The translations under genes were made by a program, and so were the position numbers. DNA of 23,873 nucleotides from a virus, in IMG/VR virus record IMGVR_UViG_3300023216_000765, positions 1-23,873 of that record; one strand, given 5' to 3'. Positions 2 through 16,484 of the stretch are shown here, piece after piece. The notes beneath the pieces are model-generated. The model saw nothing but the letters and a program-made list of their open reading frames with translations. It did no database searches and was not told the origin of the DNA. Position 1 is the first letter of the stretch, and every line of letters begins with the position of its first letter.

Positions 2-3000
2 GCAGTTAAGTCCCGTATACAAGACAGAGATTATGAACCATTAACTACAATGGAACATGTTCTAATGATGTCTGCTACATTCCCCCTTATTCGTGGTATT
101 CCTAATCTATTTGGAGCAGGTGCAGCTGGTCATGGCTCCCTTAAACAGGGTTGGAAATCTATGATGGGCAAATATGCTAGTGCTGATTACAAAGCTTTAA
201 CTAAAAACCATGGTCCAGAAACTACTCGTGGGTTGTTAGAAATTCTGACAAAGGGTGGTAAATATAATATTATTAATCAGTCACAGCTATCGGATAGAGT
301 ATGGGATATTGGTAAAGGATATACTCAATCTACTATTCTTAGTGGATTACGTGCAGGTAAAAATAAAGCTGGTGGGTATATTATGCCAATGGATGATGTC
401 TATGGATTATTAAAAGCTTATCAGGTTGAAGCTGGTAAGGCTGGTACTTCTGCATGGGCGAAAGGTTATGCTGCTGACTACTTAGCATCTGCTCCTCGTA
501 TGATTATTGGGGCTGGAGCTATGAACTTTGAGTTGATTAAATCTGGTATGATGGACAAGATGGATCCACGTGAGCTGATGACACATATGTTTATTGCTGG
601 CTTGATGACAAAGAGCCGTGGTGCATGGGGCAGAGAAACAATGCGTGAATATGTCATGGACTTCCAGGGACATAATGAAGTTATGGATCTGTTAAATATC
701 AAGCATGAAGGTATCACCGATATGATTCAGACCTACAATGAAGGACAGACTACGGCTGCCTTTGGTGGTGCTTTCAGGTCTCAAACTGTGGGTAATCAAA
801 TAGAGAAAATATTTAGTGAACATTCAAAGGATCAAACATTCCTTGAAAGTGAATTTAATCCATCACATAAGATTGTAGAAGATATAGGTCGTCTTGCTAA
901 TATCATGGGGATGAGCGGTCATGCTGACCCACGTGAATATAAGATGATTGAGGTGCGTAGGTTAGGAAGAGCTAATCTGGATGCTATGAAGGAGAAGCTG
1001 GAGGCTATTCAATTCAGTGATGGTACTACTATAGGCGAACATGGTTATGATGGCACTGCAGCTAGGCTTTCAAAGGATGTAGCTGAAGGTGTGAAGAGGA
1101 TATATTTCAATGCGATGGTTGAGCTTGGTGAAAAGACAGGTATGCCAATTACAGAAACATCTGATGGTAAGAGATTAGAGATTGGTGTAATGAATATACC
1201 TATGAATACTAATCTTGGTGAGTTTGGAACTATCCAATCTACCTTAGCTGTATTACGTGAGCTTGGATTAGCCCGTGAAACAACGTCTCCTCAAAAGGTT
1301 GGATTTCGTATGAATGAAAAGGGTGAACTAATTCGTACTGATATTAAAGACCAAAATGATCCTTTATATAATGTAGATCTTATGCCTATCGTTGAGGGAA
1401 TTGTAGATAGAACTACTAGCCAGCTCATTAAAGAAAATCATGGAAAGAATTTTAATAAGTATGTAGCATTGGATGGTGCTGATAATCCATACCTTAAATC
1501 TCTCATCCATAGTGTTGGTATTGATGCATTGGAACGTATATATCATATGTCCACTAAGGACTTAGATAAATTAGATACTACGGAACAGAACTTTGTCATA
1601 GCATCTGATCGTGCTCTTCGTGTGAAAGATAAATGGGAAGATCTGAATACTGTGGGCAGAATATTGGCGAATCCTAATCAATATAAGGTAGGAAGACGTG
1701 ATTTAACTGCTAAGGAGGAGCGAGTTGAGGATACTGTTAAAGAAGCTATAGATGAAGCTACTAATTTAGAACTTGTTATTCAACAGGAGATTCATCCTAT
1801 CATTGCAGCTGCTGAGATGCAGGCAAAGGATACCAGAACACAGCAGACTATTCCATTTGATGTAGCAAGAGCTTTGGTTGAAGGATTTGAAAAGCTTGAT
1901 CTTATACGTCCAGCAGATGCATATCTAGCATCATTTGGTAGAGATTTTCCTGAAGCTGTCCAGAGTTATACACAGCAAAGGTTATTACGTGATTGGAATT
2001 ATAGTAACGAAGCATTAGGTATGGTTATGACGGCCCAGGATAGAGGAATGTTGACAGTTGATCCTATTCAGGGTCTACAGATACAATCTGCCGCAGCCAT
2101 CAAGGAGCAAGCATCTAAAGAGGGCTTAGATATTGACCGTCAAAATGATTTGGCGCGTAAGCAGGTAGAAATTATTAAAGCTATTGATGGGCCTAATGTT
2201 CATCAGGTACCAACTTTATTTAAACCCGATCCAAAGACAGGTGAACAACCTTTTTATGTTAGCGATGTAGATAAAGTATATAATATGTTGGATGCCGTAT
2301 TTGCTAGACGTGTTTCTGAACAGGCTACTAAAGTTATGGAATTTCTTGACACAGATCCACAAGGTGTTGAACTGCAAAGTAATCGTGCACTGTTAATGGA
2401 AGGACTGGATATATTTAATAGAACAAAAGATCCAGAGAGCTTAACACAAATTGATATTGCATTGAAAGGATTACGTAAATATTATGGTGGAGATGAAAAG
2501 TATGAACCTTTACTTAAATCTATGGAGGGAGAAGTATCACGTTTTGTAGAGCTACGATCTGCTTCAGATAAAGTATTGGTTGAAGGTATCGAAGGTTATA
2601 CTATGTCTATTGGTGAAGGTATCAATGCTATTGCTACAACTACCGAAGGTGGACGTAACTATATTGGTGTTATCATGGATAAAATTAATAACCTTGGTAA
2701 GTTTGCTGGTACTCGTGGTGAAGCATTGAAATATAAAGATATGTTAATGGATAATCTAACCAGTGAGCTTGGTAGTAAAGAAAATATGCGTAAGCTAACC
2801 TTGGATGATGCTGTCCAAGAGTTTTTAAAGGTTAAAACTTATGATGCATTAGCTGAACTGATGTTGAGTGTGAATAAAAAGATTGAGATGGGGAGATCAT
2901 TTAATGTAGATCAGGCTGAGCAGATGAAAGCAGATGCTGGTAAGTTTGGTGAGTTATATAAACGTAGTATGGCTCATGTGATAATTGAAAAAGATATACA

Positions 3001-6000
3001 TGTTGCAAAGAAGTATGGTTTAGTTGATCCAGATAATATCAATCAGATTGATCCTGCTTGGATAAAAGATATGGTAGATAAAGGTATTCATCAGAGTATC
3101 CAACGTGTTCGTGATCATATATATGCTAACGATAAAGATTATACTAATGATAATCAGAAGAAGAATGCTTGGCAGACCTTTAGGAATGAAGAGTTACCAG
3201 TATTAATTAAAGGTGCTTTTGCATCTCTTGGTGGCACACGTAATACAGCAAGGGTATTCGGTAATACAATTGTCATTCAAAAGGATGTTCCTGGTCGTTC
3301 CAATAAATCAGATGATTTCTTTAATGCTCCTGGTGTATCTGGGAAGGGATATGATGTTTTCTTTTTAGAAAAAGAAGGTATACTTAATGATCGGACTGAA
3401 ACAGTTGAAGGCAGAAAAGATCTACATAATATATTAAATGGTGAGAAACCAGAAGAACGTAAGCCTCGTGTTAATAAGGAATACACTGAGTACTTTGAAA
3501 AAGAGGGAAGGAATCTGGATGAGTTCCAGATGGCAGAGAAGATACAGGAATATGTAGAAGGTATGCCAGCTAATGAACTTGTTCCTATGGATCTTAATTC
3601 TGGTCGTACAGTACTATTCCATTGGTCTGCTGATAATAAAGCTAAACTTAATACTGATTTCTCCAGCTGGTATGAAGTTAAACGTCAAAGGTTAACAGGA
3701 GATGTTAGAACTAATTTTGAAAATAGCTTTGGACATTTAGCTGAGCTAGCAAGCCCTGGATTTAAAGATGCTGAGCTTAAGATGCAACTTATGTATACGG
3801 ACTTTACCAATACATCAGGTTTTAATAGATTCCTTGATACCAGAGTATTATTTGATCCAGCTCTTCGTGCTACTTGGTATGGTAAGTTTTTCAAGTATAG
3901 TAAAACTTCTGAAGGTGGTAATACATCCAGGATGTCCTATGAAGTGTTGGAATATATGTCAAAACATCATGCAGATAGAGATACAAAGGATGCTTTCAGG
4001 ACTATTATAGATAGGGGTATTAATTTATCAGCTGTACGTGATGAAGAGTTTGTTGCAGGTAATCCATTTTATAATCTAGGTAATATTAGACGTAATATAG
4101 AAGCCATCTCTAATGATCCGACCAGATCAGATGCAGAAAGATTAAATGCAATGGAGTTTATGAATGAATTAATTCCCGAGCTCAAACCCAGTGCGCAATC
4201 AAGTTCGATTGATGGGGGTATATATATAGATCAAACCTTAGCTCGTGTTATCTGGGCATTAGATGGTAAAAGTATAGGTGATTTCAATGGTAAAAAACCT
4301 GCGGTATTTCATAATAATCCAGAAGCTGGTACTACTGCTATATTAAAAGGCTTTATGGTATATGATCCAGACATAGCAGGTAGAATGGGTGATGCTAATA
4401 TGTTTATGGGTGAATCTACTGCTAAGGAGTTCTTTAGGGAAGGTTTAATACCAATGAATTTTACATCATCTGATTGGCGTGCAGATATGGTACAGATAGG
4501 TGCAGATAATATAATTAATATTTTGCCTACAGATATAGGTTTAGGTTTCAGAGGAGAAGCAGGAAAAGGTGTTGTATTGTCTCATACATTAAATGACTTC
4601 CATGATGTACGGATGACTCAGGCTGTACGTGCATGGCAAGGACTGGAAGGCCTTGTACAGGAGATAGGAGGATATAATACAGAGCTATTGGGTAGATCCA
4701 ATAATGAATTGGCCAGGATATTATATGATCTGAAAACTCAGGATGGATTTGAATTTGACCAGGGTATTAATTCATTAGCACAGAAATTATTACATTATGG
4801 CATGGATTCTAATGATGCTACTATTAAAAGAGCGATAGGTAAATTATATCGTGGCAAAATGGTAGAGATATTACGTAAGCCTATCACATCCAAAGGAGCA
4901 GATGCATATATTATACCTGAGGCTGGTTATGTTCATCGCAATCCAGTAATACGGAAGATATCTACATTGGATAGTCAGGGTAATGAAATAGATACTGGTG
5001 CTAGGATTTATACTAGCTTTGGTGGTATGACTGTGGGGAATAGTTATTATAAAAAAGTGGTTACAAATGTAAAAGATCTTGATTTTGTTTACAAAGATAA
5101 TGGTATTGATATAGTAATACGTAAGGATGGTGATCAATGGCTTGTACATAATGTGTATGAAGAGATGGTTCGTAATCGTGGTGCCAGACTATCAAATATG
5201 GATTCATATGATGGGTATGATTTTGCTGCCCGTAGTGGTGTTAGGGGTGTGATCAATCAGATCGATGCATACATTAAAGATGGTACAATAGAGGTTACAT
5301 ATGGTGATGTATTTAACCTATTAAATAGTGGTGTTGCTAATGTCCGTGACGCTAAGGGTAATCGTGTACAAAAGAAACTGCAACACTTGCGTGAAAAGGT
5401 TAAAAAATATGATATACAACTTGGTGCTAATGCTGTTGCCATACCTAAAAAGTCATATGATATAGGTTTTCATAGGGTGGAACGTATTAGTAATAAGATA
5501 ATGGCAGAGACAGCATCAGTTAATGCTTATGATCTGCGTGTATTGCATCAACGTGATATGGATGGAGATAAATTATACACATGGTTTGGTGCTCCATTTG
5601 AAGTAATGGCACACAATATTAATAAGATGGCTATTGTTTCAGATTATTATCAGATGGATAAAGTAGATCATGATATAGATCCAATGGGATTTGGTAAATC
5701 TATTGAAAGTGGAAAACCTAGGGCTGGTACAATGAATCAATCTATTGGATATTCAGAGCTGAAACGATTACAGCAGACTAAAGCTATGGCTGTTGGTGCC
5801 AATATAGGTATGAAGAATGTAATAAATTGGATGCAAAATGTAGGATTCCGTATTGGTACACATGTAGAAATGCGAAACCTTAATGATGTTGCAGGAGATT
5901 ATAATAATTCTATTGATAAGATTGGTACATTGATGCGTATGGGTAATATTAATCAGTCATCAGTTGATCAATTTGGTGGTGTCAATGATGTATTAATGTC

Positions 6001-8098
6001 AAACATGCGTAACTACCTGCTTTTTGGTGACATTCCAGATGGTATGACCATTGATCCTACCAAACATCATATGAATCATCAGTCTATGTTTAGCATGGAG
6101 TATGGCAACCAGCCACAAAGAGCTGGTACTGCTCATCAGACTATAGATAGAGATATTATTACTACGGTAGTACAGGCATTACGTAAGCCTTCTTCTATCT
6201 TTAATGATATTTATGATGCTGGGGGTAAACATACGCCTGAAAGTTGGGAGCTGCGTAAGATACAGAAAGATCTTCGTAAGTTATTTGCAGATCCTAATAC
6301 ATATGTAGTCGAGAAATTATTATGGAAGTATCGTAAAGATCCAAAGAATAGAATGGCATTAGTTAAGATGTTTTATGATGCTGGAAGTCATGCAAAGGAC
6401 TTTAGATTAGGTGATCAGTATGCACTGGGTCAGATTATGAAACAGATTGCTAAAGGAAGGGTACCTACTCCTACTAATGAACTGATTAGATTCAGTGCTA
6501 AGGCTCCAGAGAAAGATCCTACTGGTAAGAAAATTAGTCAGGAAGATTGGTTAATGCAGCTTAATAACTCAGGTTATTTAATTAATAAACTACTTAGTAC
6601 CAGTGCCTTTGATGATCAGGCAATGTATGGATCTCTACCAAAAGATCGTATATCATCTGTGGCTACATTTACCAGCCAGTTAGTTGAACGGGTGTCGTTC
6701 CTTCAGGGGTTTGGTCAAGATGTATTCAAACCAATAGAACATTTAGATCAAGCTGGCAATCTTATTACTACAGATTTTGATCTTCAATATAAAGATGGAT
6801 TAGGTAGGGGTTATAAAGGTGCTCGTAGAATGCAGCTTGAAGGTGCAGTGTATAATTTGTTAGAGCATGAAGGATCTCGATTGGCTAGAAATATACGTAA
6901 GTATTCAGCTGGCGGTAAGTTTATGAGGTTTGATTTAGAAATGGCCAATGAAAGATTTTCTGCTGTTGAAGCTGCGATGGGTCTGGTAGAGAAACGTGCG
7001 ATGACTGTAGTGAAAGATGTAAAGACCATTACATATCGTGTGAAGACAGCTAAAGGATATATACCTAAAGCGCAAAGACGTAACTTATTTGAAAACAAAT
7101 ATGTCTACAGATATAAAGGGGATGTATTAGATAAAGAAAAGCTTGGTGAGATCAGGTATGATGATTTAGATAATCGTATAGGTTTTGTTCCTAAAGGTGA
7201 GAGTTATTTAGCTGAACCTGGGTGGACATATTTAGAAATTCAACGACCCATCATACACCAAAGTTTAAACCATGATGATTCTCGTGCAGGTTTTTCATTA
7301 TACAAAGCCACTAATCATGTTGTTCCTGAAAATTTTCTTGGACTTACCCAAGCACGTAATTTCAGGGAACATACAGCAGTAGTGCAAAGTGAAATCTCTG
7401 AAAATTATAGGGATGTATTAGAGACAATGAAACGTGCAGCTAAATCAGGTACAGCATATACTAATGAGATATTTGGTGAGGGTACCAATAGAGATCAATG
7501 GTTGTTAGATCAATATTTTAAACGTTGGGCAGGTGAAGATCTTATGCAGCACGCTGACTTATTAAATGCGGTTCAATATTTAATTAAACCAAGACCATTA
7601 CAGGGTAAGTTTATACCAACAAGAGGTGAGGTTCCTGGTGTTCCTGAAATACCATATCTATCTGTTAATAGACGACTTGTTAGTGAAGTTATGCAATGGT
7701 TGAACAATAATAAATTCATGGAAGTTAATGCAGATGGCACAGTAAATGAAACATTGCCTGGTTTAGAATTGATGGTACAAAATTGGATGAAGTATGATAA
7801 GCAGTTTAAAAATGGTAAAGACTGGGAGTTTGAAGATATCAATAGAAGTATGGGTTCTCGTTCATTAATGTTTATGAATAATTATAATGCTAATCTTCAG
7901 AAGTTGGGTAAAGATCAGCTTAGTCTGGTTGGTCACTTTTTATCTGATATATCATTATATGATCCGGCTATGGAGATGATGATGCAGGAGATGGATCTAT
8001 TACCTGGGGGCAGGGAGATGTCTAAGTTTATAACAGATGGCTTGAAAACAGAAGAGATCAAGGTAGAACTCAAAGATAGAGGATGTAAGAAGAGATAA
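2..8098 (+). CDS. Giant virion-type RNA polymerase candidate, 5' partial
   Basis: The frame is open from the left edge (16 codons before the first ATG at 50), so the true start lies outside the window and the protein exceeds 2,698 residues. Numbered from the Met at 50, residues 1836-1840 read D-M-D-G-D within the context R-D-M-D-G-D-K-L-Y-T-W. The three aspartates match the Mg-binding DxDGD motif of the second double-psi barrel in RNA polymerases of the beta-prime, QDE-1, YonO and crAss-like phage types. The upstream context (G-F-H-R-V-E-R then about 25 residues to the motif) is compatible with that barrel. The first 35 visible residues are hydrophobic and Gly-rich; most of the rest is helical with no other motif I recognise. 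It lies just before two more very large genes, as expected for virion-packaged and ejected polymerases. The call rests mainly on one motif plus size and context; a large polyvalent internal virion protein is the alternative. Confidence 0.62.
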   Translation, partial: AVKSRIQDRDYEPLTTMEHVLMMSATFPLIRGIPNLFGAGAAGHGSLKQGWKSMMGKYASADYKALTKNHGPETTRGLLEILTKGGKYNIINQSQLSDRVWDIGKGYTQSTILSGLRAGKNKAGGYIMPMDDVYGLLKAYQVEAGKAGTSAWAKGYAADYLASAPRMIIGAGAMNFELIKSGMMDKMDPRELMTHMFIAGLMTKSRGAWGRETMREYVMDFQGHNEVMDLLNIKHEGITDMIQTYNEGQTTAAFGGAFRSQTVGNQIEKIFSEHSKDQTFLESEFNPSHKIVEDIGRLANIMGMSGHADPREYKMIEVRRLGRANLDAMKEKLEAIQFSDGTTIGEHGYDGTAARLSKDVAEGVKRIYFNAMVELGEKTGMPITETSDGKRLEIGVMNIPMNTNLGEFGTIQSTLAVLRELGLARETTSPQKVGFRMNEKGELIRTDIKDQNDPLYNVDLMPIVEGIVDRTTSQLIKENHGKNFNKYVALDGADNPYLKSLIHSVGIDALERIYHMSTKDLDKLDTTEQNFVIASDRALRVKDKWEDLNTVGRILANPNQYKVGRRDLTAKEERVEDTVKEAIDEATNLELVIQQEIHPIIAAAEMQAKDTRTQQTIPFDVARALVEGFEKLDLIRPADAYLASFGRDFPEAVQSYTQQRLLRDWNYSNEALGMVMTAQDRGMLTVDPIQGLQIQSAAAIKEQASKEGLDIDRQNDLARKQVEIIKAIDGPNVHQVPTLFKPDPKTGEQPFYVSDVDKVYNMLDAVFARRVSEQATKVMEFLDTDPQGVELQSNRALLMEGLDIFNRTKDPESLTQIDIALKGLRKYYGGDEKYEPLLKSMEGEVSRFVELRSASDKVLVEGIEGYTMSIGEGINAIATTTEGGRNYIGVIMDKINNLGKFAGTRGEALKYKDMLMDNLTSELGSKENMRKLTLDDAVQEFLKVKTYDALAELMLSVNKKIEMGRSFNVDQAEQMKADAGKFGELYKRSMAHVIIEKDIHVAKKYGLVDPDNINQIDPAWIKDMVDKGIHQSIQRVRDHIYANDKDYTNDNQKKNAWQTFRNEELPVLIKGAFASLGGTRNTARVFGNTIVIQKDVPGRSNKSDDFFNAPGVSGKGYDVFFLEKEGILNDRTETVEGRKDLHNILNGEKPEERKPRVNKEYTEYFEKEGRNLDEFQMAEKIQEYVEGMPANELVPMDLNSGRTVLFHWSADNKAKLNTDFSSWYEVKRQRLTGDVRTNFENSFGHLAELASPGFKDAELKMQLMYTDFTNTSGFNRFLDTRVLFDPALRATWYGKFFKYSKTSEGGNTSRMSYEVLEYMSKHHADRDTKDAFRTIIDRGINLSAVRDEEFVAGNPFYNLGNIRRNIEAISNDPTRSDAERLNAMEFMNELIPELKPSAQSSSIDGGIYIDQTLARVIWALDGKSIGDFNGKKPAVFHNNPEAGTTAILKGFMVYDPDIAGRMGDANMFMGESTAKEFFREGLIPMNFTSSDWRADMVQIGADNIINILPTDIGLGFRGEAGKGVVLSHTLNDFHDVRMTQAVRAWQGLEGLVQEIGGYNTELLGRSNNELARILYDLKTQDGFEFDQGINSLAQKLLHYGMDSNDATIKRAIGKLYRGKMVEILRKPITSKGADAYIIPEAGYVHRNPVIRKISTLDSQGNEIDTGARIYTSFGGMTVGNSYYKKVVTNVKDLDFVYKDNGIDIVIRKDGDQWLVHNVYEEMVRNRGARLSNMDSYDGYDFAARSGVRGVINQIDAYIKDGTIEVTYGDVFNLLNSGVANVRDAKGNRVQKKLQHLREKVKKYDIQLGANAVAIPKKSYDIGFHRVERISNKIMAETASVNAYDLRVLHQRDMDGDKLYTWFGAPFEVMAHNINKMAIVSDYYQMDKVDHDIDPMGFGKSIESGKPRAGTMNQSIGYSELKRLQQTKAMAVGANIGMKNVINWMQNVGFRIGTHVEMRNLNDVAGDYNNSIDKIGTLMRMGNINQSSVDQFGGVNDVLMSNMRNYLLFGDIPDGMTIDPTKHHMNHQSMFSMEYGNQPQRAGTAHQTIDRDIITTVVQALRKPSSIFNDIYDAGGKHTPESWELRKIQKDLRKLFADPNTYVVEKLLWKYRKDPKNRMALVKMFYDAGSHAKDFRLGDQYALGQIMKQIAKGRVPTPTNELIRFSAKAPEKDPTGKKISQEDWLMQLNNSGYLINKLLSTSAFDDQAMYGSLPKDRISSVATFTSQLVERVSFLQGFGQDVFKPIEHLDQAGNLITTDFDLQYKDGLGRGYKGARRMQLEGAVYNLLEHEGSRLARNIRKYSAGGKFMRFDLEMANERFSAVEAAMGLVEKRAMTVVKDVKTITYRVKTAKGYIPKAQRRNLFENKYVYRYKGDVLDKEKLGEIRYDDLDNRIGFVPKGESYLAEPGWTYLEIQRPIIHQSLNHDDSRAGFSLYKATNHVVPENFLGLTQARNFREHTAVVQSEISENYRDVLETMKRAAKSGTAYTNEIFGEGTNRDQWLLDQYFKRWAGEDLMQHADLLNAVQYLIKPRPLQGKFIPTRGEVPGVPEIPYLSVNRRLVSEVMQWLNNNKFMEVNADGTVNETLPGLELMVQNWMKYDKQFKNGKDWEFEDINRSMGSRSLMFMNNYNANLQKLGKDQLSLVGHFLSDISLYDPAMEMMMQEMDLLPGGREMSKFITDGLKTEEIKVELKDRGCKKR

Positions 8099-8206: not shown

Positions 8207-8242
8207 ATGTTTTGTAATGATATACTACCAGAAAGAAATTGA
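8207..8242 (+). CDS. Possible 11-codon leader peptide
   Basis: ATG at 8207 follows GGGAG at 8195-8199 with a normal 7-base gap and opens an 11-codon frame (MFCNDILPERN) ending in TGA at 8240-8242. That stop overlaps the TTG at 8239 which begins the large downstream frame (TTGA). The leader has a better ribosome binding site than the large gene itself, which suggests translational coupling. A frameshift joining the two frames in the A-rich GAAAGAAATTG stretch is the alternative, as is a sequencing indel. Confidence 0.33.
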   Translation: MFCNDILPERN

Positions 8243-10914
8243 TTGTTCAGATGTATGGAAAAGCTGAAACTGACCTAGGAAGGGAAATGGTAACCTATTT
8301 TGCAGAAGATGTGCTGCAAAGCAGTAAAAAGCCTTACCATGAGCATTATATCTTGTCAGAACCTGAGATTAAACGTATTAAAAATGCTATTGATTCACAG
8401 GAAAAACAAATAGCTAAAGGTTCTGTAGGTTGGGTTAGGCGTAAAACATTGATTGTACCAGCTGCAGTTGCTCGTATGTCACCTGCTACAGGTAAGTTTT
8501 ATGATAATATGAATTTAGGTAAGAATTATGAACGAACGCAGGGCAATAAGCAAGTACAGGCTTCCAGGGTTATTGCTATGCATATGCGTAAAGCACATAT
8601 AGATGAAGCGAGAAAAGACAGACAAGCTGGTAAGCCTAAAAAAGATCGTCTTCCTCAAACCAGATATATGCCTGGGATAGATGTATTACGGACAATAGAT
8701 GAATTACAATATAAAATACAAGACTCTACTAATTCATCAGATGTATTTAAGTATGAAAAAGCAGTTGAAGAGCTGATTGCTGGCGATAAAGGTAGATTAG
8801 TTCGTCAATTTATGGATCTTATGGAAATGAATCAAGGTGATTTTCGTAATATCAAGAAGCATAGGGGAGAATATAATGAAGATATTATACAAGCAGCTGA
8901 GGCTGGCAAAGTATTAATGCAGGAAATGGCTCCAGTAATGACAGCCGGCCTGAGAAATATGCGTGACGTGGTATCACTCAGATTTATCGGAGAGCGATAC
9001 AATGAAAACAATCCGCAGTCATCGTTACTCACCAATGGATACGCGAAGAGCACAATCAGGGCTATTAATGATGCCATTGATCGTGTTAATGTTGGTAAAA
9101 AAGGTCGTGACTATATGCCACACCTTATTCTGGATGATTTAGTTAGGGTAAAGCATGATTTTGATAATTTTGCAGCAATTAAGCAAACAAAAGATCAAGA
9201 GAAAGCTTTAGCTACCATGTCACAAACATTAGATGGAATATTACAGCACCAAGGTAGCCAGCCAGAGACTGCTCGTGCTCGTAATGATTTAATAGAAAAC
9301 TATTGGAATAAGAATCCACTTTTTATAATGCAACAGTATGCCCAAGATGTAATAGGGTTTAATCATGTTAATAAAATACAGGTAGATTACTTAGAGGTGA
9401 TGAAGTCTTTTGGTAAATCTGGTGTAGATACACCATTTGTAACCGGTATGCGTGAATGGATTAATGATGAGTTTATGATAGCAACCAGGGGTTTAAAGGA
9501 TAGATCTGACTGGGTGAATAATACTGTTAGATTGATTACAGCTGCTGAAACCATTAAAGCTATGGGCTTATCTGTTACTGGTACAATACGTAATGCTGTA
9601 TCAGCCATGTATTTCTTTACTGATATTGGTTTTTTAAATGTGAAAAGATCTATGCATGAGTATAATAATGATGGCATGAAAATAACAGATAGAGATGATA
9701 ATACTAGTACGATATCACAACGACTAGATAAGGTAGAAGCTGAACAGGGCTTCAAATTTGGTGATATAGGCGCGGAACTCTATGCAGAGGGTCTACTACC
9801 AGCGGAAGGAATAAGTCAGTCAGACGTCCGATTTAACCCCTTAACGGGCAATGTGGAGTATGCACAGAATAAATCATGGCGTGTAATGAATAAAGGTATC
9901 GACTGGTCTGTATCTAAGGCTTTAACCTTTCATAGGATCACTGAAAACTGGTCTCGTAACTATATGTTCAGGGTTGCATATATTATGGCAGAACAACAAT
10001 ATCGTAGTCAACCTGGGTATGCTGAGTCTATGGGTGAGGTATCACTTAGTAGGAAGGCTACCAATGTAGCATTGAAAGCTGTGAATACTTTTGCATTTGA
10101 ATATGCAGCACATGCTAAACCAAGACTTATGTCCGGGTATCCCGGTAAGATTGATTCAAAAACAGGTCAAATAGTAAAAGATCCATTGTCTGGACTTGGA
10201 GCATCTGGTCAATTGATGTTTCAGCTTCTGCATTATCCTTTATCCTTTGTAGATATGCAATATCAGATATTAAAGGGAAGTAAGGATTCTATGCTAGCTG
10301 GACAATGGGATTCACCAGAGAACATGTATATATTGAAGTATGCTGGGTTGGCCTTTGCTATTCAGGCTCTCTCTGTAGGTCTAAATGCAGATCTTAACAC
10401 AATTGCAGAGAATGATACCTGGAGAAAGATTATGTCTATTAAGGAGCATTTTGAGGAAGATTCTGAAAAGACCAGAAGGGGCTTGTTATCTGAAATTACT
10501 GGTCCATTTCCTGGGGATGTACAATATGCACTTATGATGTCTGGTCTTATGCAGATGCCTGATTCAGACTTTGGTAAGATTGTATTAGGATATGAAGATT
10601 ATGCTAACAAGAAAAAGGATGAACAACAGGTAGATTTCTGGAACAAGATTGGTACTGAAATAGGTAGATGGAACTCAAAGATTATACCTGCCGTAAAGGA
10701 TGGCCGAGGTACGGATGTATTCAGGCATTGGCTTGCTATGTACCCCAGAGATTGGACTAAAAAGTATCATGAAAAGTTATTTGGTAGAAAACGTAAACGT
10801 TATCCAAGACATATAGCTATAGCCAGGAAGAAAGCTGGTTTGTCCTTGAAGTATGAGGAGCCATCTGGAGATATTAAGGCTGCATTAGGTTCTCTGGATT
10901 TATTAGGTAGATAG
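8239..10914 (+). CDS. Large internal or ejected virion protein, 891 aa
   Basis: The family is not recognised. The frame has no stop after the TGA at 8218, and the possible starts are TTG at 8239 (overlapping the leader stop) or ATG at 8251; neither has a strong ribosome binding site of its own. The protein is mostly helical and charged. About residues 435-466 contain an amphipathic stretch with M-G-L-S-V-T-G-T-I-R-N, and about residues 699-718 form a membrane-like segment containing A-G-L-A-F-A-I-Q-A-L. The C-terminus is basic (R-K-R-K-R-Y). Its size, its position directly after the polymerase candidate and its membrane-like parts fit an internal head or ejection protein that enters the cell with the DNA. 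It may also be the separated C-terminal part of the same giant polypeptide as the gene before it. Function is inferred from context only. Confidence 0.7.
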   Translation: MIVQMYGKAETDLGREMVTYFAEDVLQSSKKPYHEHYILSEPEIKRIKNAIDSQEKQIAKGSVGWVRRKTLIVPAAVARMSPATGKFYDNMNLGKNYERTQGNKQVQASRVIAMHMRKAHIDEARKDRQAGKPKKDRLPQTRYMPGIDVLRTIDELQYKIQDSTNSSDVFKYEKAVEELIAGDKGRLVRQFMDLMEMNQGDFRNIKKHRGEYNEDIIQAAEAGKVLMQEMAPVMTAGLRNMRDVVSLRFIGERYNENNPQSSLLTNGYAKSTIRAINDAIDRVNVGKKGRDYMPHLILDDLVRVKHDFDNFAAIKQTKDQEKALATMSQTLDGILQHQGSQPETARARNDLIENYWNKNPLFIMQQYAQDVIGFNHVNKIQVDYLEVMKSFGKSGVDTPFVTGMREWINDEFMIATRGLKDRSDWVNNTVRLITAAETIKAMGLSVTGTIRNAVSAMYFFTDIGFLNVKRSMHEYNNDGMKITDRDDNTSTISQRLDKVEAEQGFKFGDIGAELYAEGLLPAEGISQSDVRFNPLTGNVEYAQNKSWRVMNKGIDWSVSKALTFHRITENWSRNYMFRVAYIMAEQQYRSQPGYAESMGEVSLSRKATNVALKAVNTFAFEYAAHAKPRLMSGYPGKIDSKTGQIVKDPLSGLGASGQLMFQLLHYPLSFVDMQYQILKGSKDSMLAGQWDSPENMYILKYAGLAFAIQALSVGLNADLNTIAENDTWRKIMSIKEHFEEDSEKTRRGLLSEITGPFPGDVQYALMMSGLMQMPDSDFGKIVLGYEDYANKKKDEQQVDFWNKIGTEIGRWNSKIIPAVKDGRGTDVFRHWLAMYPRDWTKKYHEKLFGRKRKRYPRHIAIARKKAGLSLKYEEPSGDIKAALGSLDLLGR

Positions 10915-10915: not shown

Positions 10916-11938
10916 ATGCCAGGTATTCTAGAAATATTTAAGTTAGCAAAAGATGCAATTACTACTGCTACTGAAGGTGGAAATGTTGGTGAGATGATTG
11001 ATAAAATGACTATGGATGAAGCAGATGCTGCCTCTGTAGCCTTACGAGCATTGAATGATTATGATATGAAACATCCTTACCTTTCTCGCATGTTGAGAAT
11101 AAATAAATTAGTTGATTTTGTAGATGAACAGGCATATAATATAGGTTCCACAAGTGGTAAGCCGCTTAGAGACCCAGGAGAAATTGATTATAATGTAAAT
11201 ATAGGTTCTGCAAAATATGGAGCTATAGATAATTATACGGGGATTGAGAATGCCGCTAATCCTCCTAATTTATTGAAGATATATTTGGGTATAGACAAAA
11301 ATGTTTTACCAGAATCGGATGTAAAGCCATCATCTTGGACTAAAGGGGATCCTGAACAGGGATGGAGAAGTATAAAGGAATATTCTACATTTAGTTTACC
11401 AGATGAGTCGGATATGCAATATCATAAGGAATGGTTTGATAAAGCTTCAAAAGAATCAACGGAAGGGTATGGCGTCAATATGGAAGCATTTAAAAAACTC
11501 AAAACTTCAGTGGAGGAAGGTACATATGATCCTTCCGAACATGCAATTAAACTAGATCAACCTGGATATGGTTCAGTCTCAGCTCCTGGATTATGGTATA
11601 CGTCAGATGTAGACACAGGAGCACGAACAGAATCAATAGGTTATGATGTGGATAAAGAGGAATATTATTTTAGTATGACTGATGTATGGGATTTTGAACC
11701 TGAAGGGTATGACAAAGGTTGGGGTGATGCTAGATATAGCAAGGAAGGTATTGATAGGACAACTGAAAGTTCACAAGCTTATACTCAAGCAGCATTAATG
11801 CATGGAGTTGGTAGGCCTATTGGATTATATGATCGTTATCCGATACCTAAAGAAACTATTGATTTTTGGGCTAAGGAAGGTCCTGTTTGGGATACTACTA
11901 TTGAGGATAAGTTAGTTAGCGCATGGAACCAAGATTAA
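10916..11938 (+). CDS. Hypothetical virion-associated protein, 340 aa
   Basis: ATG at 10916 comes one base after the upstream TAG, with only a weak AGGT upstream, so translation is probably coupled. The N-terminal 60 residues are helical (L-E-I-F-K-L-A-K-D-A). The rest is rich in Gly, Asp, Tyr and Trp and looks like beta structure. Residues about 235-310 carry I-G-Y-D-V-D-K-E and V-W-D-F-E-P, then a helix and G-R-P-I-G-L-Y-D-R-Y, a layout I have seen at the ends of large phage internal proteins. No catalytic motif is visible. It is the last plus-strand gene; its TAA overlaps the stop of the convergent 58-residue gene. A structural or ejection role is inferred from the neighbours. Confidence 0.72.
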   Translation: MPGILEIFKLAKDAITTATEGGNVGEMIDKMTMDEADAASVALRALNDYDMKHPYLSRMLRINKLVDFVDEQAYNIGSTSGKPLRDPGEIDYNVNIGSAKYGAIDNYTGIENAANPPNLLKIYLGIDKNVLPESDVKPSSWTKGDPEQGWRSIKEYSTFSLPDESDMQYHKEWFDKASKESTEGYGVNMEAFKKLKTSVEEGTYDPSEHAIKLDQPGYGSVSAPGLWYTSDVDTGARTESIGYDVDKEEYYFSMTDVWDFEPEGYDKGWGDARYSKEGIDRTTESSQAYTQAALMHGVGRPIGLYDRYPIPKETIDFWAKEGPVWDTTIEDKLVSAWNQD

Positions 11939-12111
11939 AACTTATCATCTGTTTTTGATCCAATAAAGATCTTGAAGTGAAAGATTGCCACTTCAAAGAT
12001 TATCCCACATACATCATCCATTGTTAAACAAAAACTAAATGGGAACAAACTGATCCGCCAGTAGTTAGTATCGTAATCCACCCCAAAATAATAATGTCCT
12101 ATTTGATTCAT
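11935..12111 (-). CDS. Small hypothetical protein, 58 aa
   Basis: This short gene fills what looks like the convergent intergenic space. ATG at 12111 overlaps the TGA of the upstream nuclease gene as ATGA, the usual sign of coupled translation, and the frame stays open for 58 codons to a TAA at 11935-11937. That stop overlaps the TAA of the plus-strand 340-residue gene, so the two operons meet with no spacer. The product is rich in Phe, Ile and Tyr (for example F-E-V-A-I-F-H-F-K-I-F-I-G) with two Cys, and looks like a compact beta-rich domain. I do not recognise the family. Confidence 0.65.
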   Translation of the reverse strand: MNQIGHYYFGVDYDTNYWRISLFPFSFCLTMDDVCGIIFEVAIFHFKIFIGSKTDDKF

Positions 12112-12440
12112 TTGATTAATCCTATAAATTGATCTAATTCAATAACAGCATATGTCTTGCTGTTGTTACGTTTTAATACTAATACCGGTATACCTTCCCC
12201 AGCATTATCTTCAGCTTGCTGTAGGCTCTTCCATAAATCCATACGCTCCTTGTTCTTACATTCAAAACTATATGGAATAGATTTCCTAGCTTTAGGAGAT
12301 AATACAATATCCATACCAGTCATACCCATGGTTTGGGATTTAATATCATCTTCATGGAGTTTAGGAAATGTGCTACGTAATACATCACGCAGCATGTTCT
12401 GCAGCCGACGGCCTTTCGCTTTTACTGATTTAGTATTCAA
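12108..12440 (-). CDS. PD-(D/E)xK nuclease, 110 aa
   Basis: A small nuclease of the PD-(D/E)xK fold, of the type phages use for recombination intermediates, branched DNA or host DNA. The motif is visible: G-M-D44-I-V-L, then E60-C-K62 on the next strand, then a helix with Q74-Q75. N-terminal residues 10-30 form a basic helix (G-R-R-L-Q-N-M-L-R). The length is typical of single-domain members. The frame begins at TTG (12438-12440), overlapping the preceding TGA as TTGA; the only alternative is an internal Met at residue 16, which would cut the N-terminal helix. Placement among replication and recombination genes fits a resolvase-like role, but the exact substrate cannot be told. Confidence 0.75.
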   Translation of the reverse strand: MNTKSVKAKGRRLQNMLRDVLRSTFPKLHEDDIKSQTMGMTGMDIVLSPKARKSIPYSFECKNKERMDLWKSLQQAEDNAGEGIPVLVLKRNNSKTYAVIELDQFIGLIK

Positions 12441-12649
12441 GGATTTAGACCAGTTCCAGCATTCATATCATCTTCTAGTTGTTGATTAGCTTTAAATTGC
12501 GTGCCTAACCATCCATCAATGCATTTTAGATCATGCTGTATACGTGGAGGTGAGAACTCCATTGGTACTTTCGTAGGTGGTAGTGGAGTCAGATCCCTCG
12601 CATAGATCACTAGACGAGATATCTTCCGTAGTATGTTGTTCTGTATCAT
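12437..12649 (-). CDS. Small hypothetical protein, 70 aa, nested in the preceding gene
   Basis: ATG at 12649 has a strong AAGGAG six to nine bases upstream, although it lies inside the 112-residue reading frame (overlap 12531-12649, different frame). The product is basic at the N-terminus and has a Pro-rich middle (L-T-P-L-P-P-T-K-V-P), then F-S-P-P-R-I-Q-H-D-L-K-C-I-D. The stop TGA overlaps the TTG start of the nuclease gene. I do not recognise the family. The ribosome binding site and the tight junction with the nuclease support a real gene. Confidence 0.6.
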   Translation of the reverse strand: MIQNNILRKISRLVIYARDLTPLPPTKVPMEFSPPRIQHDLKCIDGWLGTQFKANQQLEDDMNAGTGLNP

Positions 12650-12869
12650 ATTCTTCTCTCCTTGTTTGTGGTTTTAATTTAAAATACATTTCTAATCTTA
12701 TCAAAGCATTTTTTATTGCATCTGGCGGTGGGGTGAATCCAAGTGTTTTTAATTCAGATTCCAACTCTATTTTATGCAATTTTATTGCTACTAAATTTTG
12801 TTCAGTTTGTATAATATCTAACTTTAGGTCTTCAATTGTTTTAAGTAATGTTTGTTCGTTAAATTTCAT
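12531..12869 (-). CDS. Coiled-coil hypothetical protein, 112 aa
   Basis: ATG at 12869 is preceded by AAAGGA at a normal distance. Residues 5-45 are a heptad-like helix (L-L-K-T-I-E-D-L-K-L-D-I-I-Q), followed by F-T-P-P-P-D and a second helix to about residue 70. The last 40 residues are Ser/Thr/Glu-rich and low in complexity, and they are encoded by the DNA that also encodes the start of the 70-residue gene in another frame. The tail may be a by-product of that overlap, or an indel may have altered the true end. Function unknown; a short coiled-coil adaptor or spanin-like helper cannot be excluded. Confidence 0.6.
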   Translation of the reverse strand: MKFNEQTLLKTIEDLKLDIIQTEQNLVAIKLHKIELESELKTLGFTPPPDAIKNALIRLEMYFKLKPQTRREEYDTEQHTTEDISSSDLCEGSDSTTTYESTNGVLTSTYTA

Positions 12870-12909
12870 TTTATTCCTTTATTTTAAATAAATTTAATAG
12901 ATAGAGGCC

Positions 12910-13113
12910 CTACTCATGCAGAGCCTCCATCTTCATCTTCCACCTCTTCCCCAATTCACGTTTGGCACATTTTTTACAGATTATTAAGGAGTCCCAATCA
13001 GCCAATAGGGGGAGGCTGGGAACTATTTTGTAAGTATGCATTTTATAGGATGTAGTATGACACATTTGGCATTTACCTTCAGGTAAAATACCAATGTACT
13101 TACTTACCTTCAT
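12910..13113 (-). CDS. Small zinc-ribbon protein, 67 aa
   Basis: Two CxxC knuckles, C15-Q-M-C18 and C46-K-K-C49, are 27 residues apart, as in small zinc ribbons. The C-terminus is basic and helical. The reading frame extends to 13152, but the ATG at 13113 is the better start: it overlaps the end of the upstream gene by only 14 bases and has GGGG about 10 bases upstream. The stop TAG sits in a short hairpin (GAGGC at 12904-12908 pairing with GCCTC at 12923-12927), which may separate it from the next cistron. The role is probably nucleic-acid or protein binding; no family assigned. Confidence 0.65.
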   Translation of the reverse strand: MKVSKYIGILPEGKCQMCHTTSYKMHTYKIVPSLPLLADWDSLIICKKCAKRELGKRWKMKMEALHE

Positions 13114-13405
13114 CAACCATGCCCCAAAGTAGGCATAGATAGACAATCGCATCAGTTATACGTCCAGTCACATCTTCACGCTGTGAAGTATGACCATTAA
13201 TATACGATGCTATGCCATCAATATGTTTCATGAAATATGTCATTAGCACTGCTTCCTTAGGTTGACCCGTATAGGATCCAACTCTACGAAAGTTTGCAAA
13301 TACATCTTCATCAGCACGAGCATACTCTGCTTGTCCTGCATCACGAGTTTTATTGACAATTGAGAAGATCTTCTTCATCAATATATCCATTTCGGGCTTA
13401 GTCAT
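13100..13405 (-). CDS. Nmad1/DUF1599-like small helical protein, 101 aa
   Basis: An all-helical protein with the layout E-Y-A-R-A-D-E-D-V-F-A-N-F-R-R, a middle helix ending K-H-I-D-G-I-A-S-Y-I, a polar loop (G-H-T-S-Q-R-E-D), and a last helix G-R-I-T-D-A-I-V-Y-L. This resembles phage proteins annotated as nucleotide-modification-associated (Nmad1/DUF1599), a group related in fold to MazG-like NTP pyrophosphatases. That assignment is from memory of the pattern and is not certain. The frame reaches 13423, but the Met at 13405 has AAGGA at the right distance and overlaps the primase-helicase stop by 8 bases, so it is the likely start. It may tune nucleotide pools for replication. Confidence 0.6.
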   Translation of the reverse strand: MTKPEMDILMKKIFSIVNKTRDAGQAEYARADEDVFANFRRVGSYTGQPKEAVLMTYFMKHIDGIASYINGHTSQREDVTGRITDAIVYLCLLWGMVDEGK

Positions 13406-15146
13406 AAGGTAATATCCTTGCATTCTCTACTTTTAGTTCCACTCTTATTTGTTCTCTTTCTCGATTTTTATCACTTTTCAGTAATAATGTATCAATAAGA
13501 CCTTCTTCATTTCTGAAGGGCTTTAAAGATAACAACTTATTTGCATTATATGCAATACGAAAGGAACCTCTGGCAGAGGCAATATCCATACCTTCTCTGA
13601 AGGCTGACTTTGATATCTCAGATACAGCAAACACAACAATGTTATGTTTAACTGCAAGCTCCATCAATGCCTGGGATGCTTCCTCTACTTTCATGTTATT
13701 ATCCTTCTGTTTACTCCTAAATAATCCCAGATGGTCTACAACTACAATCTCAGGTTTAGTAGGGAGCATGGAAATGCGTTTTTCAAGCTCAAACGGATAA
13801 CATGGTGAATAATCAACAGTTAACCATTTAAACTCCTTGTCAATTCCATTTTGGAAGGTTTTGTAATGTGCTGCGAGTTCCACTTCGCTCCACCCTTTAG
13901 CAATCATTACGAACCTACTCCATATTTGACGTGGAGACATCTCCATTTCCATAAAGTATGTAGGTCGTTTAAAGTGCGTCATCCAATTCTGAAGTAACAT
14001 TGTCTTCATGGATGCAGGTGGTGCTTGTAAGATTACCACTTCACCAGGATATATAGGAAAGGTTTGTCCATAGATTTTACCGATATCTATTGGTGCTAGA
14101 TCTTTACGGAGAAATTCTATCAATTCCTTTTCCATTGAAGAGGCATCCATCGTGGATTGGGATTTCTTGGCCTTGTATAGCCTACAGGTATTTTTGCAAT
14201 ATTCATCCATTATAGGATCATTACAACCATACCGATATCCATGTCCACCATGGCCATCGTAGCAATTTGTTACTATTTTATCCATTTCAGCTTTTTTAAA
14301 TGGACTGCGAGGATTGTCGACTTTCTGTCTCCAACCTTCCAGTACATATCTTACTACACCTTCTGGATAAAGCCATCTAAACCATGCAGCTAATCTTAGT
14401 GCTACATTGTGTCTTTTTCCCATAGGTTGACTTTCCAACATACCACCAATACAGGGATAGTTAGAAGGATCAGGTACCCTACCCTGGTTCACTATGGTAT
14501 CGGTTTTAGACGATTCTTGGGGTGTAGAAGACGATAACGTATCAAATACAGGGTTACACTCCATCACGTTATTTAACAGCTTCTGTGGGTGTTTGGCGTA
14601 TTCTAGTATCTGATCAGTTGGTTCCAGATTTTCTAACCATTTGTTAGGAATCTGTACCTTATATAGACCAGATTTACTATTTCTAGTATTTACAATACGT
14701 ATCAATCTTGGTTTATCTGTTACAGCTGGGTCAGCATATTCAAATATACCTGCTTTAGTTAGTGCTTGCTTAACTAATATATGTAAATCTGCGGCTGGTT
14801 TCCATCTAAAGGCATCTGTTGGAATGCCTAGATGAAACCCAGTACCACTGAAATAGGTATTAAATGGTATATCTACATCATTAAGGTATAATGATAATCC
14901 ATATGCTTTTTCTTTAGCATTATCCACATTAGCTCCATCTACATCTAAGATAAACTCATCTGGTAAGTAAATTAAGCCATCATATCCTGCTAATGTTTTA
15001 TGGCTAGCAAAGAACTCCTTTACATAATCATCATATTCATATAATGACATAAATGTATCGGAATCTAAACCTTGCCATTCTGATTCTTTATCAGCCTCCT
15101 GAAAGTAATGTCTTCTATGTAGGCTGAATGCAAATTCTCTTGTCAT
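13398..15146 (-). CDS. Primase-helicase fusion (AEP primase + RecA/DnaB-like helicase), 582 aa
   Basis: This is the replicative enzyme that primes and unwinds DNA at the fork. Residues 60-170 look like an archaeo-eukaryotic primase: F-I-L-D68-V-D70-G holds the metal-binding acidic pair, S100-G-T-G-F-H105 the nucleotide-binding motif, and R147/R150 lie in the third motif region. Residues 230-325 carry C232, C308, C317 and C321 in a P-C-I...C...C...C layout like a PriL-type metal or iron-sulfur module. Residues 365-560 are a RecA/DnaB-type ATPase: Walker A A375-P-P-A-S-M-K381-T382, Walker B I-V-V-V-D471, and a later S-E-I-S-K strand end. The two glycines usual in Walker A are Ala and Met here. 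ATG at 15146 has AAGGAG upstream. Confidence 0.88.
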   Translation of the reverse strand: MTREFAFSLHRRHYFQEADKESEWQGLDSDTFMSLYEYDDYVKEFFASHKTLAGYDGLIYLPDEFILDVDGANVDNAKEKAYGLSLYLNDVDIPFNTYFSGTGFHLGIPTDAFRWKPAADLHILVKQALTKAGIFEYADPAVTDKPRLIRIVNTRNSKSGLYKVQIPNKWLENLEPTDQILEYAKHPQKLLNNVMECNPVFDTLSSSTPQESSKTDTIVNQGRVPDPSNYPCIGGMLESQPMGKRHNVALRLAAWFRWLYPEGVVRYVLEGWRQKVDNPRSPFKKAEMDKIVTNCYDGHGGHGYRYGCNDPIMDEYCKNTCRLYKAKKSQSTMDASSMEKELIEFLRKDLAPIDIGKIYGQTFPIYPGEVVILQAPPASMKTMLLQNWMTHFKRPTYFMEMEMSPRQIWSRFVMIAKGWSEVELAAHYKTFQNGIDKEFKWLTVDYSPCYPFELEKRISMLPTKPEIVVVDHLGLFRSKQKDNNMKVEEASQALMELAVKHNIVVFAVSEISKSAFREGMDIASARGSFRIAYNANKLLSLKPFRNEEGLIDTLLLKSDKNREREQIRVELKVENARILPYD

Positions 15147-15154
15147 AGTTCTCC

Positions 15155-15343
15155 TTATTTATCTTCTTCATCTACATAATCTTCCATATCAATGTATTTA
15201 CATAGGCAATCATCTTCCATTTTCTTACAAATTCCACAGATAGCTCCATCTAATACATCTTGACAGAAACCACAAACTATTCCTTCTGTTATTGGTTTAT
15301 CACATTCAATACAGTGATCAGGCAATGGCTTTAATCTCATCAT
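15155..15343 (-). CDS. Eight-cysteine double zinc-ribbon protein, 62 aa
   Basis: Cysteines fall at 11, 14, 24, 27, 36, 39, 46 and 48, giving three CxxC pairs and one CxC. This is enough for two zinc sites in a 62-residue protein. The C-terminus is very acidic (D-M-E-D-Y-V-D-E-E-D-K). The start ATG at 15343 (or the adjacent Met at 15340) has GGAG upstream and overlaps the preceding gene by 26 bases. It is 8 bases before the primase-helicase start, so the two are co-translated. A zinc-bound adaptor for the replication machinery is a reasonable guess; no family recognised. Confidence 0.68.
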   Translation of the reverse strand: MMRLKPLPDHCIECDKPITEGIVCGFCQDVLDGAICGICKKMEDDCLCKYIDMEDYVDEEDK

Positions 15344-15617
15344 TTAATCTCCAGCAATAGCATGGTCTTCCATATGGTCCCATAACCTTTACAGTAGTTT
15401 TGATTAATCGACCATTTCTGGTCAATGTATTCATAGATCTTCTAATGCTTGTAATGGGAGCATCAGTATTCATCTCTTCTTTTACTATCCATGGACTTAA
15501 CATAGCAGCTACTCCATGGGCTGCGAACACAGCATAAACTCTGCTATCTTGCTTTGTAGCAGAATCACGAGCTTTTTCTAGCTCTATGCTTCGTTCATTG
15601 GTTGTATTATAGTACAT
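15318..15617 (-). CDS. Winged-helix DNA-binding protein, 99 aa
   Basis: Residues about 35-90 have a winged-helix layout: a first helix, E-E-M-N-T-D, then a recognition helix P-I-T-S-I-R-R-S-M-N-T-L and a two-stranded wing, G-R-L-I-K-T-T-V-K-V then G-P-Y-G-R-P-C-Y-C-W. Small proteins of this kind occur beside phage replication genes and may load helicase or regulate transcription. ATG at 15617 follows AAGGAG with a six-base gap. It overlaps the next gene by 26 bases. The fold is a sequence-pattern judgement; the DNA target is unknown. Confidence 0.65.
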   Translation of the reverse strand: MYYNTTNERSIELEKARDSATKQDSRVYAVFAAHGVAAMLSPWIVKEEMNTDAPITSIRRSMNTLTRNGRLIKTTVKVMGPYGRPCYCWRLNDEIKAIA

Positions 15618-15625
15618 AGTTCTCC

Positions 15626-15721
15626 TTATTTAATTAACCAAAATAATATGACCATTATTACTTTATCCAAAAGCCATAAGATTATCAGTATTGTTAACTT
15701 AGTATCATTATTTACATGCAA
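15626..15721 (-). CDS. Possible small membrane protein, about 31 aa, TTG start
   Basis: A frame open between the zinc-ribbon gene and the winged-helix gene encodes a hydrophobic helix (L-T-I-L-I-I-L-W-L-L-D-K-V-I-M-V-I) and ends in L-I-K-TAA directly against the AAGGAG of the next gene. There is no upstream ATG; the only standard start is TTG at 15719-15721, inside the last codons of the 73-residue gene. Without this gene the space would be an unusually long gap for this tight operon. No Shine-Dalgarno is visible, so it depends on coupling. Confidence 0.33.
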   Translation of the reverse strand: MHVNNDTKLTILIILWLLDKVIMVILFWLIK

Positions 15722-15929
15722 AACACAATTGATTATATAATCCTCTTCTTGGGAAGTTTTTATAATAATGTGTTGTTGAAATTTTCTTATACTGATTAGG
15801 TGTTATTTCATACACACGATTACATTCTGGACATAATTTAACAGCAAATGATTCTTTTTCATTTATTCTTTGTTTACTTTTAGCTACAGGATGTGTATGA
15901 TTATACATTAATCCCCAATCATTTATCAT
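15708..15929 (-). CDS. Zinc-ribbon protein, 73 aa
   Basis: Two CxxC knuckles, C33-P-E-C36 and C69-F-A-C72, bracket a basic, Tyr-rich middle (Y-K-K-I-S-T-T-H-Y-Y-K-N-F). The second knuckle is almost the C-terminus. ATG at 15929 is preceded by AAGGAG at 15935-15940; a GTG one codon earlier is less well spaced. It is the first gene after the hairpin-rich stretch, so transcripts reading through that stretch or starting in it would express it. Probably nucleic-acid binding; family unknown. Confidence 0.68.
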   Translation of the reverse strand: MINDWGLMYNHTHPVAKSKQRINEKESFAVKLCPECNRVYEITPNQYKKISTTHYYKNFPRRGLYNQLCFACK

Positions 15930-15955
15930 CACTTCTCCTTTTAGTGTTTTACTAT

Positions 15956-16323
15956 TTAGTGAAATTTATGGGGAAGTAACCATTTACGTATCTCGGTTTC
16001 CATGGCTCCGACTACTTCCCCGCCTCTTAGGGTTTTCACCCAATTATATTACAACTTGGGCAGGTACTCAGACAGGTGCTACCTGTAGAGATGCCCTACC
16101 CATTAACTAGCAGAGACATCGTTTTTCTCGTGCACTGCTCACGCAAGCGTTGTAATTGAATGCGCCCAAATTGTCGACACGCAGACTTACTTGGCAGTCA
16201 ACCAATGCAGTGTACCTCTTCGAGCGCAAAATATTGAGCAGATAGCTGTGAGGATAATACGAATGTATTGTCTGTCAAATCGTAAGGGAGCGTATCTACT
16301 CAGGCAGATTAATTAGAGTTAAA
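15956..16323. other. Hairpin-rich, GC-richer stretch with no convincing gene
   Basis: About 370 bases between the 51-residue gene and the zinc-ribbon gene. Hand counts of three 60-base lines give 43-48% G+C, clearly above the neighbouring genes. Visible hairpins include GGGGAAGTA (15970-15978) with TACTTCCCC (16013-16021), ACAGGT-GCT-ACCTGT (16071-16085) inside GGGCA (16058-16062) and TGCCC (16092-16096), ACGC-AA-GCGT (16141-16150), and GATAATAC-GAAT-GTATTGTC (16253-16272). The longest minus-strand frames lack a good start: one of 27 codons from GTG at 16039 (ending 15956), and a stop-interrupted frame further up. I favour a structured non-coding RNA or a structured leader on the minus strand. 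A decayed gene is the alternative. Confidence 0.45.
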
Positions 16324-16479
16324 CTAATCTTTATTTAAATCAGTCTTTTTAGCTCTAATCTTATGTTTACCGGTTCTATCATATTTCCAACCTTCCAGTT
16401 CTATTATATCATTAATACGTTCATAATATTCTGGATTATTGCTCATATCCTCTATGAGTTTACTTTTAAAGTATCCCAT
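16324..16479 (-). CDS. Small hypothetical protein, 51 aa
   Basis: ATG at 16479 lies 6 bases after the stop of the SSB-like gene and opens 51 codons ending in TAG at 16324-16326. The product is charged and helical, starting M-G-Y-F-K-S-K-L-I-E-D-M, with a middle E-L-E-G-W-K-Y-D-R and a basic C-terminus (K-I-R-A-K-K-T). No Shine-Dalgarno is visible, so it is probably translated by coupling to the gene before it. Composition and spacing are gene-like; no family recognised. Confidence 0.65.
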   Translation of the reverse strand: MGYFKSKLIEDMSNNPEYYERINDIIELEGWKYDRTGKHKIRAKKTDLNKD

Positions 16480-16484
16480 AATCG

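Follow-up and report, generated by a model that had tools for sequence, protein, structure and literature searches.

A giant phage protein converging on an early gene block as a candidate ejected single-chain two-barrel RNA polymerase

The giant gene and its genomic context

The stretch of DNA analysed, hereafter called the window, comprises positions 1 to 23,873 (23,873 nucleotides) of the virus record IMGVR_UViG_3300023216_000765. The phage is a small, tailed and unclassified one, and the first part of the window is occupied by a giant gene, which is placed after tail, fibre and internal-protein genes and converges on a block of early genes (Table 1). The gene forms a single open frame of 2,698 residues out of about 2,970, around 280 being missing, since the intact relative found in the 38 kb contig of genome G001 (L004:9188-18121) has 2,977. 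The preliminary description of this DNA had set the giant next to large ejection-type proteins, and in substance this holds, the gene being the third-last of the structural operon, followed by those coding for 891 and 340 residues.

The giant contains exactly one DxDGD motif, at residues 1852-1856 of the open frame, in the context LHQ-R-DMDGD-KLYTWFGAP. The motif had been described as R-D1836-M-D1838-G-D1840-K-L-Y, and both residues and coordinates proved correct, taking into account that the numbering 1836-1840 counts from the ATG at nucleotide 50, whereas 1852-1856 counts the whole open frame. Since 7.9% of shuffles of the giant's composition also yield a DxDGD, the bare motif is weak evidence on its own.

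Table 1. Location of the genes and candidate elements discussed in the text (residues counted along the whole open frame)
Feature	Coordinates	Strand	Remarks
Giant gene for a putative ejection protein, the second half of which would hold a single-chain two-barrel RNA polymerase	2..8098	+	Truncated at the 5' end by the contig edge
Candidate DPBB-B region, residues 1399-1530, IDGGIYI...ILKGFMVY...STAK...GKGVV	4196..4591	+	Most conserved block, 0.74-0.84
Variable connector between the candidate barrels, residues 1531-1794	4592..5383	+	0.60-0.61 identity at 1601-1800
Candidate DPBB-A region, residues 1795-1870, NAVAIPKK...VNAYDLRV..RDxDGDxLYxW	5384..5611	+	Second conservation peak; profile tests against flank shuffles
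DxDGD motif (DMDGD), candidate Mg-binding active-site loop	5555..5569	+	DFDGD in close relatives, DxDGD in 11/11 syntenic giants covering the site
VGANIGMKNVINWMQN, candidate bridge-helix start, 79 residues past the motif	5792..5839	+	Nearly invariant in the family
891-residue gene, candidate partner ejection protein	8239..10914	+	72% identical to G001; weak relative of the ~1,200-residue gene
340-residue gene, last of the structural operon	10916..11938	+	43% identical to G001
Convergent early block (primase-helicase, Erf, E1, JAB, Ubl, others), presumed polymerase target	12108..23810	-	
ThiF-type E1 (Ubl cassette)	17683-18336	-	
JAB protease (Ubl cassette)	18321-19208	-	
529-aa protein (Ubl cassette)	19224-20813	-	
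ThiS-like 69-aa Ubl (Ubl cassette)	20860-21069	-	

No meaningful match was obtained anywhere along the giant when it was compared with Pfam, PHROGs, NCBIfam and PDB sequences, and tblastn against 50,697 phage records returned only two chance-level pieces, both in tape measures, so that the earlier proposal of a divergent branch stands. Pattern scans of viral and bacterial collections, based on a number of conserved stretches as well as on D[hydrophobic]DGDx[hydrophobic]YxW, recovered three relatives already known and otherwise chance hits, the patterns used finding no relatives of the giant in bacterial genomes. Likewise, the PF05183, phrog_4291 and PF00940 profiles had no match in the contigs.

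Divergence from G001 shifts sharply along the window, with 86% DNA identity in the early block (11931-19313) and 70-80% in the structural part (2-11900). At the protein level most early products are 80-91% identical and a few 64-78%, against 59% for the giant as a whole. Immediately after the giant (8099-8238), the downstream gene of G001 starts at the giant's stop and carries 30 extra residues, and the window copy has no start there, a difference that could possibly be due to a frameshift or a sequencing error. The structural operon of G001 also encodes a 508-residue protein with an N-terminal HINT/intein-like domain (L021:14253-15779; PF07591, E=1.4e-10). At the end of contig L002 (IMGVR_UViG_3300022693_001164), the piece of the 891-residue gene that lies on the reverse strand after the giant breaks off corresponds to an inverted chimeric assembly end.

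As regards the early block, sigma-70-like sites are not enriched (49 found versus 62 expected), no strong repeat was found that would represent a common early promoter motif or a phage promoter, and Rfam returned nothing. Two stretches of about 500 nucleotides each (15933-16484 and 22839-23330) contain no long genes and have no Rfam match and an ordinary folding. The primase encoded at 13398-15146 (minus strand) is related to P23-45-type primases and is fused to a DnaB-like helicase. Among phages, the E1 gene has its closest relatives in crAss-like and Flavobacterium phages, which suggests, although it does not prove, that the host of the window phage belongs to the Bacteroidota. Genome G004 also has E1 and JAB, next to a giant protein with DxDGD, and crAss001 has an E1.

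Conservation of the giant and of its motif

Only three close relatives of the giant were found in the viral collection. Both of those covering the site have RDFDGDHLY at the motif, DxDGD being thus present in 3/3 close-family members that cover it. The identity to G001, calculated per block of 100 residues, lies at 0.47-0.68 in most of the protein, and peaks at residues 1401-1600 (0.74-0.84) and 1801-1900 (0.78), with 0.60-0.61 between these two peaks (residues 1601-1800); the only other block as high is that of residues 1-100 (0.77). Two conserved blocks joined by a variable connector are the pattern that two catalytic barrels should give. Read by eye, the first block has IDGGI(Y/F)I...ILKGFMVY...STAK plus GEAGKGVVLSH, with K1449, K1475 and K1522 invariant in the close family, and the second reads NAVAIPKK...SVNAYDLRV..RDxDGDxLYxW, followed by VGAN(I/V)GMKNVINW. 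The element VGANIGMKNVINWMQN could be matched, by eye only, to post-motif elements in gp66 (GKSGVGITAN) and in other families.

A lineage of phages of about 40-60 kb has structural and early genes in common with the window phage, at 25-45% identity. A scan for DFDGDH found four of them with giants (L064, L072, L044 and L046, corresponding to G004, G008, G009 and G010), each with DFDGDH at the same gene position as in the window giant and with sizes of 2,704-3,229 residues where the contig is long enough (G010 2,704; G009 3,229). The relationship is seen in a 738-residue protein shared with G010 (30% over 799 aa, E=1e-79) together with other structural genes, in a series of structural genes shared with G009 and G008, and in the E1 (44%, E=1e-62) and JAB (44%, E=1e-43) of G004. 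In these four phages the giant is followed by a gene of about 1,200 residues and then by convergent early genes, an order comparable to that of the window (giant, 891, 340, early block), and the HMM of the ~1,200-residue family matches the 891-residue protein weakly (E=0.0024). Across the lineage, convergent early genes are seen wherever the contig reaches that far. Taking into account this common gene layout and the related neighbours, the syntenic giants can be regarded as positional orthologues of the window giant, although BLAST does not align them.

G004, G008, G009 and G010 cannot serve to assess the conservation of the motif, having been found through it. A motif-blind search was therefore based on the downstream ~1,200-residue family, which returned 14 loci, five of them on contigs already in the set (L198, L199, L201, L205 and L209) and nine new. 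DxDGD is present in 6/6 of the new giants covering the site (L203, L204, L206, L208, L210 and L211), as DNDGD once, DWDGD four times and DYDGD once; in L200, L202 and L207, which are outside this count, the giant is absent or too short to reach the site. Altogether, the motif is found in 11/11 syntenic giants covering the site, six of them recovered without it, and the preliminary description, which had named conservation among homologues as one test of its proposal, is upheld on this point. A second position that varies while D, D, G and D remain fixed is the behaviour of an active-site loop.

An Arg-x-Pro some 38 residues ahead of the motif, a usual but not a defining trait of these enzymes, is present in 11/11 syntenic giants, including each of the six motif-blind ones, as well as in gp96 and crAss polymerases, and is absent in the window branch, which has A-I-P (placed by eye) where relatives and proven enzymes have R-x-P.

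Pure chance was dropped as the origin of the motif, D, D, G and D being invariant in independently found positional orthologues. A calcium loop was also discarded, since no G follows the third D, unlike in the common DxDxDG.

As for the lineage itself, most contigs are below 60 kb, with one of 111 kb. It was absent from INPHARED in a tblastn search with one member (L072). The portals of G004 and G008 belong to phrog_156 and the terminase of G008 to phrog_38, and the window-family contigs contain no recognisable capsid, portal or terminase genes.

Sequence links to proven polymerases

Direct comparison of the window family with crAss-like, gp96 and phrog_4291 profiles by hhalign and hmmsearch gave no significant match. 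A bridging test was built on a profile made from the 11 giants over the 80 residues that surround the motif, each protein being compared with 3,000 shuffles of its flanks in which the motif was kept. The window family was beaten by 3, 6 and 4 of the 3,000 shuffles, gp96 by 10, a phrog_4291 protein by 16, and eight crAss-like polymerases by 1, 1, 2, 3, 6, 12, 18 and 54. Among the decoys, L070 fails (1448/3000) and L041, prohead-protease-like by eye, passes (9/3000); two further DxDGD proteins of unassigned function, L065 and L067, do not pass. The test is not fully specific, because gp66 itself fails (734/3000) and one clear decoy passes. Nevertheless, since the window family, gp96 and the crAss-like polymerases beat nearly all flank shuffles, there is indirect support for the 60 residues before the motif carrying DPBB-A-like sequence beyond the motif itself. 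Comparing profile with profile, the window family matched the giants with a probability of 80% (P=1.3e-5), in a single comparison that includes the motif. Scored with the profile of the syntenic giants, two DFDGDH proteins, L085 and L039, on contigs of 18 and 107 kb, exceed every one of the 3,000 shuffles, and the separate large DxDGD family that they form may possibly represent further two-barrel polymerases.

With respect to the other barrel, the profile test of the DPBB-B candidate gave 19, 6 and 4 of 1000. The DG...[hydrophobic]K[G/T] signature of DPBB-B is common to gp96, phrog_4291 proteins and the syntenic giants, but is only suggestive, because 5-7% of shuffles also carry DG...LKG.

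Structure prediction by AlphaFold reached a pLDDT of 32 on 1,001 residues and of 42 on 131 residues, too low to show a double-psi barrel, and Foldseek on the 131-residue low-confidence model gave E values above 1, which are meaningless. The authors of the gp96 study report that, beyond the motif, no significant similarity links many of the two-barrel families (PMC10770324). Thus, neither the failed profile searches nor the AlphaFold runs refute a polymerase, since the proven families, too, hardly resemble one another beyond the motif.

Proposed mechanism and comparison with known systems

Taking these data together, it is proposed that the giant is an internal virion protein of the ejection type, which would carry a single-chain two-barrel DNA-dependent RNA polymerase at residues ~1240-2200. 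The block 1399-1530 would form the beta-like barrel, source of basic residues, and the block 1795-1870 the beta-prime-like barrel, whose DxDGD loop would hold the catalytic Mg. The polymerase would be carried inside the particle and ejected together with the DNA and the neighbour proteins, and once in the cell it would at once transcribe the opposite-strand early block, from promoters presumed to lie there, before or without the host polymerase. We consider this mechanism as a whole, with a highly divergent enzyme, very probable. Virion packaging, suggested by analogy and gene order, is its less certain step, although still a likely one.

Several alternatives have to be weighed against this proposal. 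There is a small but real chance that the giant is an ejection protein devoid of polymerase activity, in which DxDGD forms a loop of metal-binding or structural function or survives as a dead remnant, taking into account that 7.9% of shuffles contain the motif, that it often occurs in unrelated proteins, calcium-type loops among them, and that the AlphaFold models, at pLDDT 32 and 42, yielded no fold. However, D, D, G and D are invariant and x is variable in positional orthologues that cannot be aligned elsewhere, the pre-motif region matches proven polymerases through the syntenic orthologues, and the third D lacks the following G of the calcium loop DxDxDG. It is also unlikely that a genuine two-barrel polymerase is made late, outside the virion, and serves late or middle transcription. 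Phages can indeed encode non-virion single-chain polymerases, such as YonO (PMC5467207) or P23-45 gp64 (PMC10770324), but the gene studied here is among the last of the structural operon, immediately preceded by tail and internal-protein genes and followed by a further large gene of structural type, and the proven non-virion enzymes are far smaller and stand-alone (YonO, about 100 kDa, PMC5467207), whereas the virion ones lie within giants (gp66, gp96).

A direct membership of the gp66 family, the phage being a small crAss-like phage, would agree with the similar layout and with the closest phage relatives of E1 being in crAss-like and Flavobacterium phages. Against it, the core has no detectable match to any crAss-like or other phage record, the crAss motif is DFD[I/V]D where DxDGD is found here, the portals of G004 and G008 belong to phrog_156, and most lineage contigs are below 60 kb (one of 111 kb) versus 90-104 kb for crAss-like genomes, which makes this reading quite improbable. 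An N4-type virion RNA polymerase, with a T7-like single-subunit fold and an incidental DxDGD, would fit the size class and the ejection role (N4 vRNAP has about 3,500 residues, PMC12633501), but no Pfam match was obtained, nor one to PF00940, the T7-like domain, this last result being of little weight since the control genomes gave none either, and the motif conserved here is that of two-barrel enzymes; this possibility is extremely remote. The ejected two-barrel polymerase is thus retained as the preferred interpretation.

All cellular RNA polymerases belong to the two-barrel class, and to our knowledge very few injected single-chain members of it are known. If the proposal is true, it explains how these phages begin transcription, the injection of a two-barrel enzyme becomes a recurrent phage strategy, and a further family, in small phages, in which little but DxDGD survives lets the minimal two-barrel active site be tested on a natural example. 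The syntenic giants (L198-L211, G004, G008-G010) supply intermediates that structure prediction and phylogeny had lacked.

Among the known systems, N4 vRNAP has a T7-like fold and is not known to have the DxDGD two-barrel core. The resemblance of the window giant to this enzyme, and to those of the Schitoviridae, is that of a giant ejected polymerase (PMC12633501). SP-beta YonO and the eukaryotic QDE-1/RDR enzymes share the single-chain two-barrel class (PMC5467207, PMC7281927), but they are not giant and are not known as virion proteins. The proteins of phrog_4291, annotated as 'RNA-dependent RNA polymerase', are also of the two-barrel class and have DGLIYV...YLKGMAVY...ADFDGDH, although they are stand-alone, of about 900 residues, and without a direct profile match to the window family.

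P23-45 gp96 is a virion polymerase fused to a tape measure, which transcribes the pre-early genes (PMC10770324). Its likeness to the window giant comprises DFDGD, an upstream DG...LKG, the fusion of the polymerase to a giant ejected protein and the result of the bridging test, and its elements (DGALGIL...GLKGTVIVDP, then RNPV...VDFDGD) follow the same order; moreover, the P23-45 primase is a distant relative of the window primase-helicase. In contrast, gp96 belongs to a long-tailed phage, its polymerase is N-terminal in a tape measure of 5,002 residues, and its KG-to-DFDGD distance is 231 residues versus 403.

The example given by the preliminary description was crAss-like gp66. The gp66 of phi14:2 (gp077 in KC821624, PDB 6VR4) is also a giant single chain (2,180 aa) with a three-Asp motif, and is annotated, on the basis of mass spectrometry, as a virion protein; its gene is flanked by large structural genes and lies at the end of a structural module converging on early genes, and a giant gene in a structural block that converges on early genes is likewise seen in the window, G009 and G010. 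It reportedly has two DPBBs and, once injected, transcribes the early genes, and crAss polymerases are described as evolving unusually fast (PMC7886860), a feature mirrored by the window giant when its identity to G001 is set against that of most early proteins. The systems differ in the motif, DFDID or DFDVD in gp66 versus DxDGD in the window family, and in genome size, about 100 kb in Crassvirales versus mostly less than 60 kb in this lineage. Thus, the suggestion of a gp66-like virion polymerase is partly supported, by motif conservation, by flank likeness to DPBB-A through intermediate families and by gene placement; direct homology to gp66 is undetectable. It seems fairly likely that an unclassified lineage of ~40-60 kb phages uses its own very divergent family of injected two-barrel polymerases, a third case beside the crAss-like phages and P23-45, in which the window branch would have replaced the pre-motif arginine. 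In sum, the best reading is that the giant works like crAss gp66, homology to which is undetected, and represents a new and very divergent family of a kind already known.
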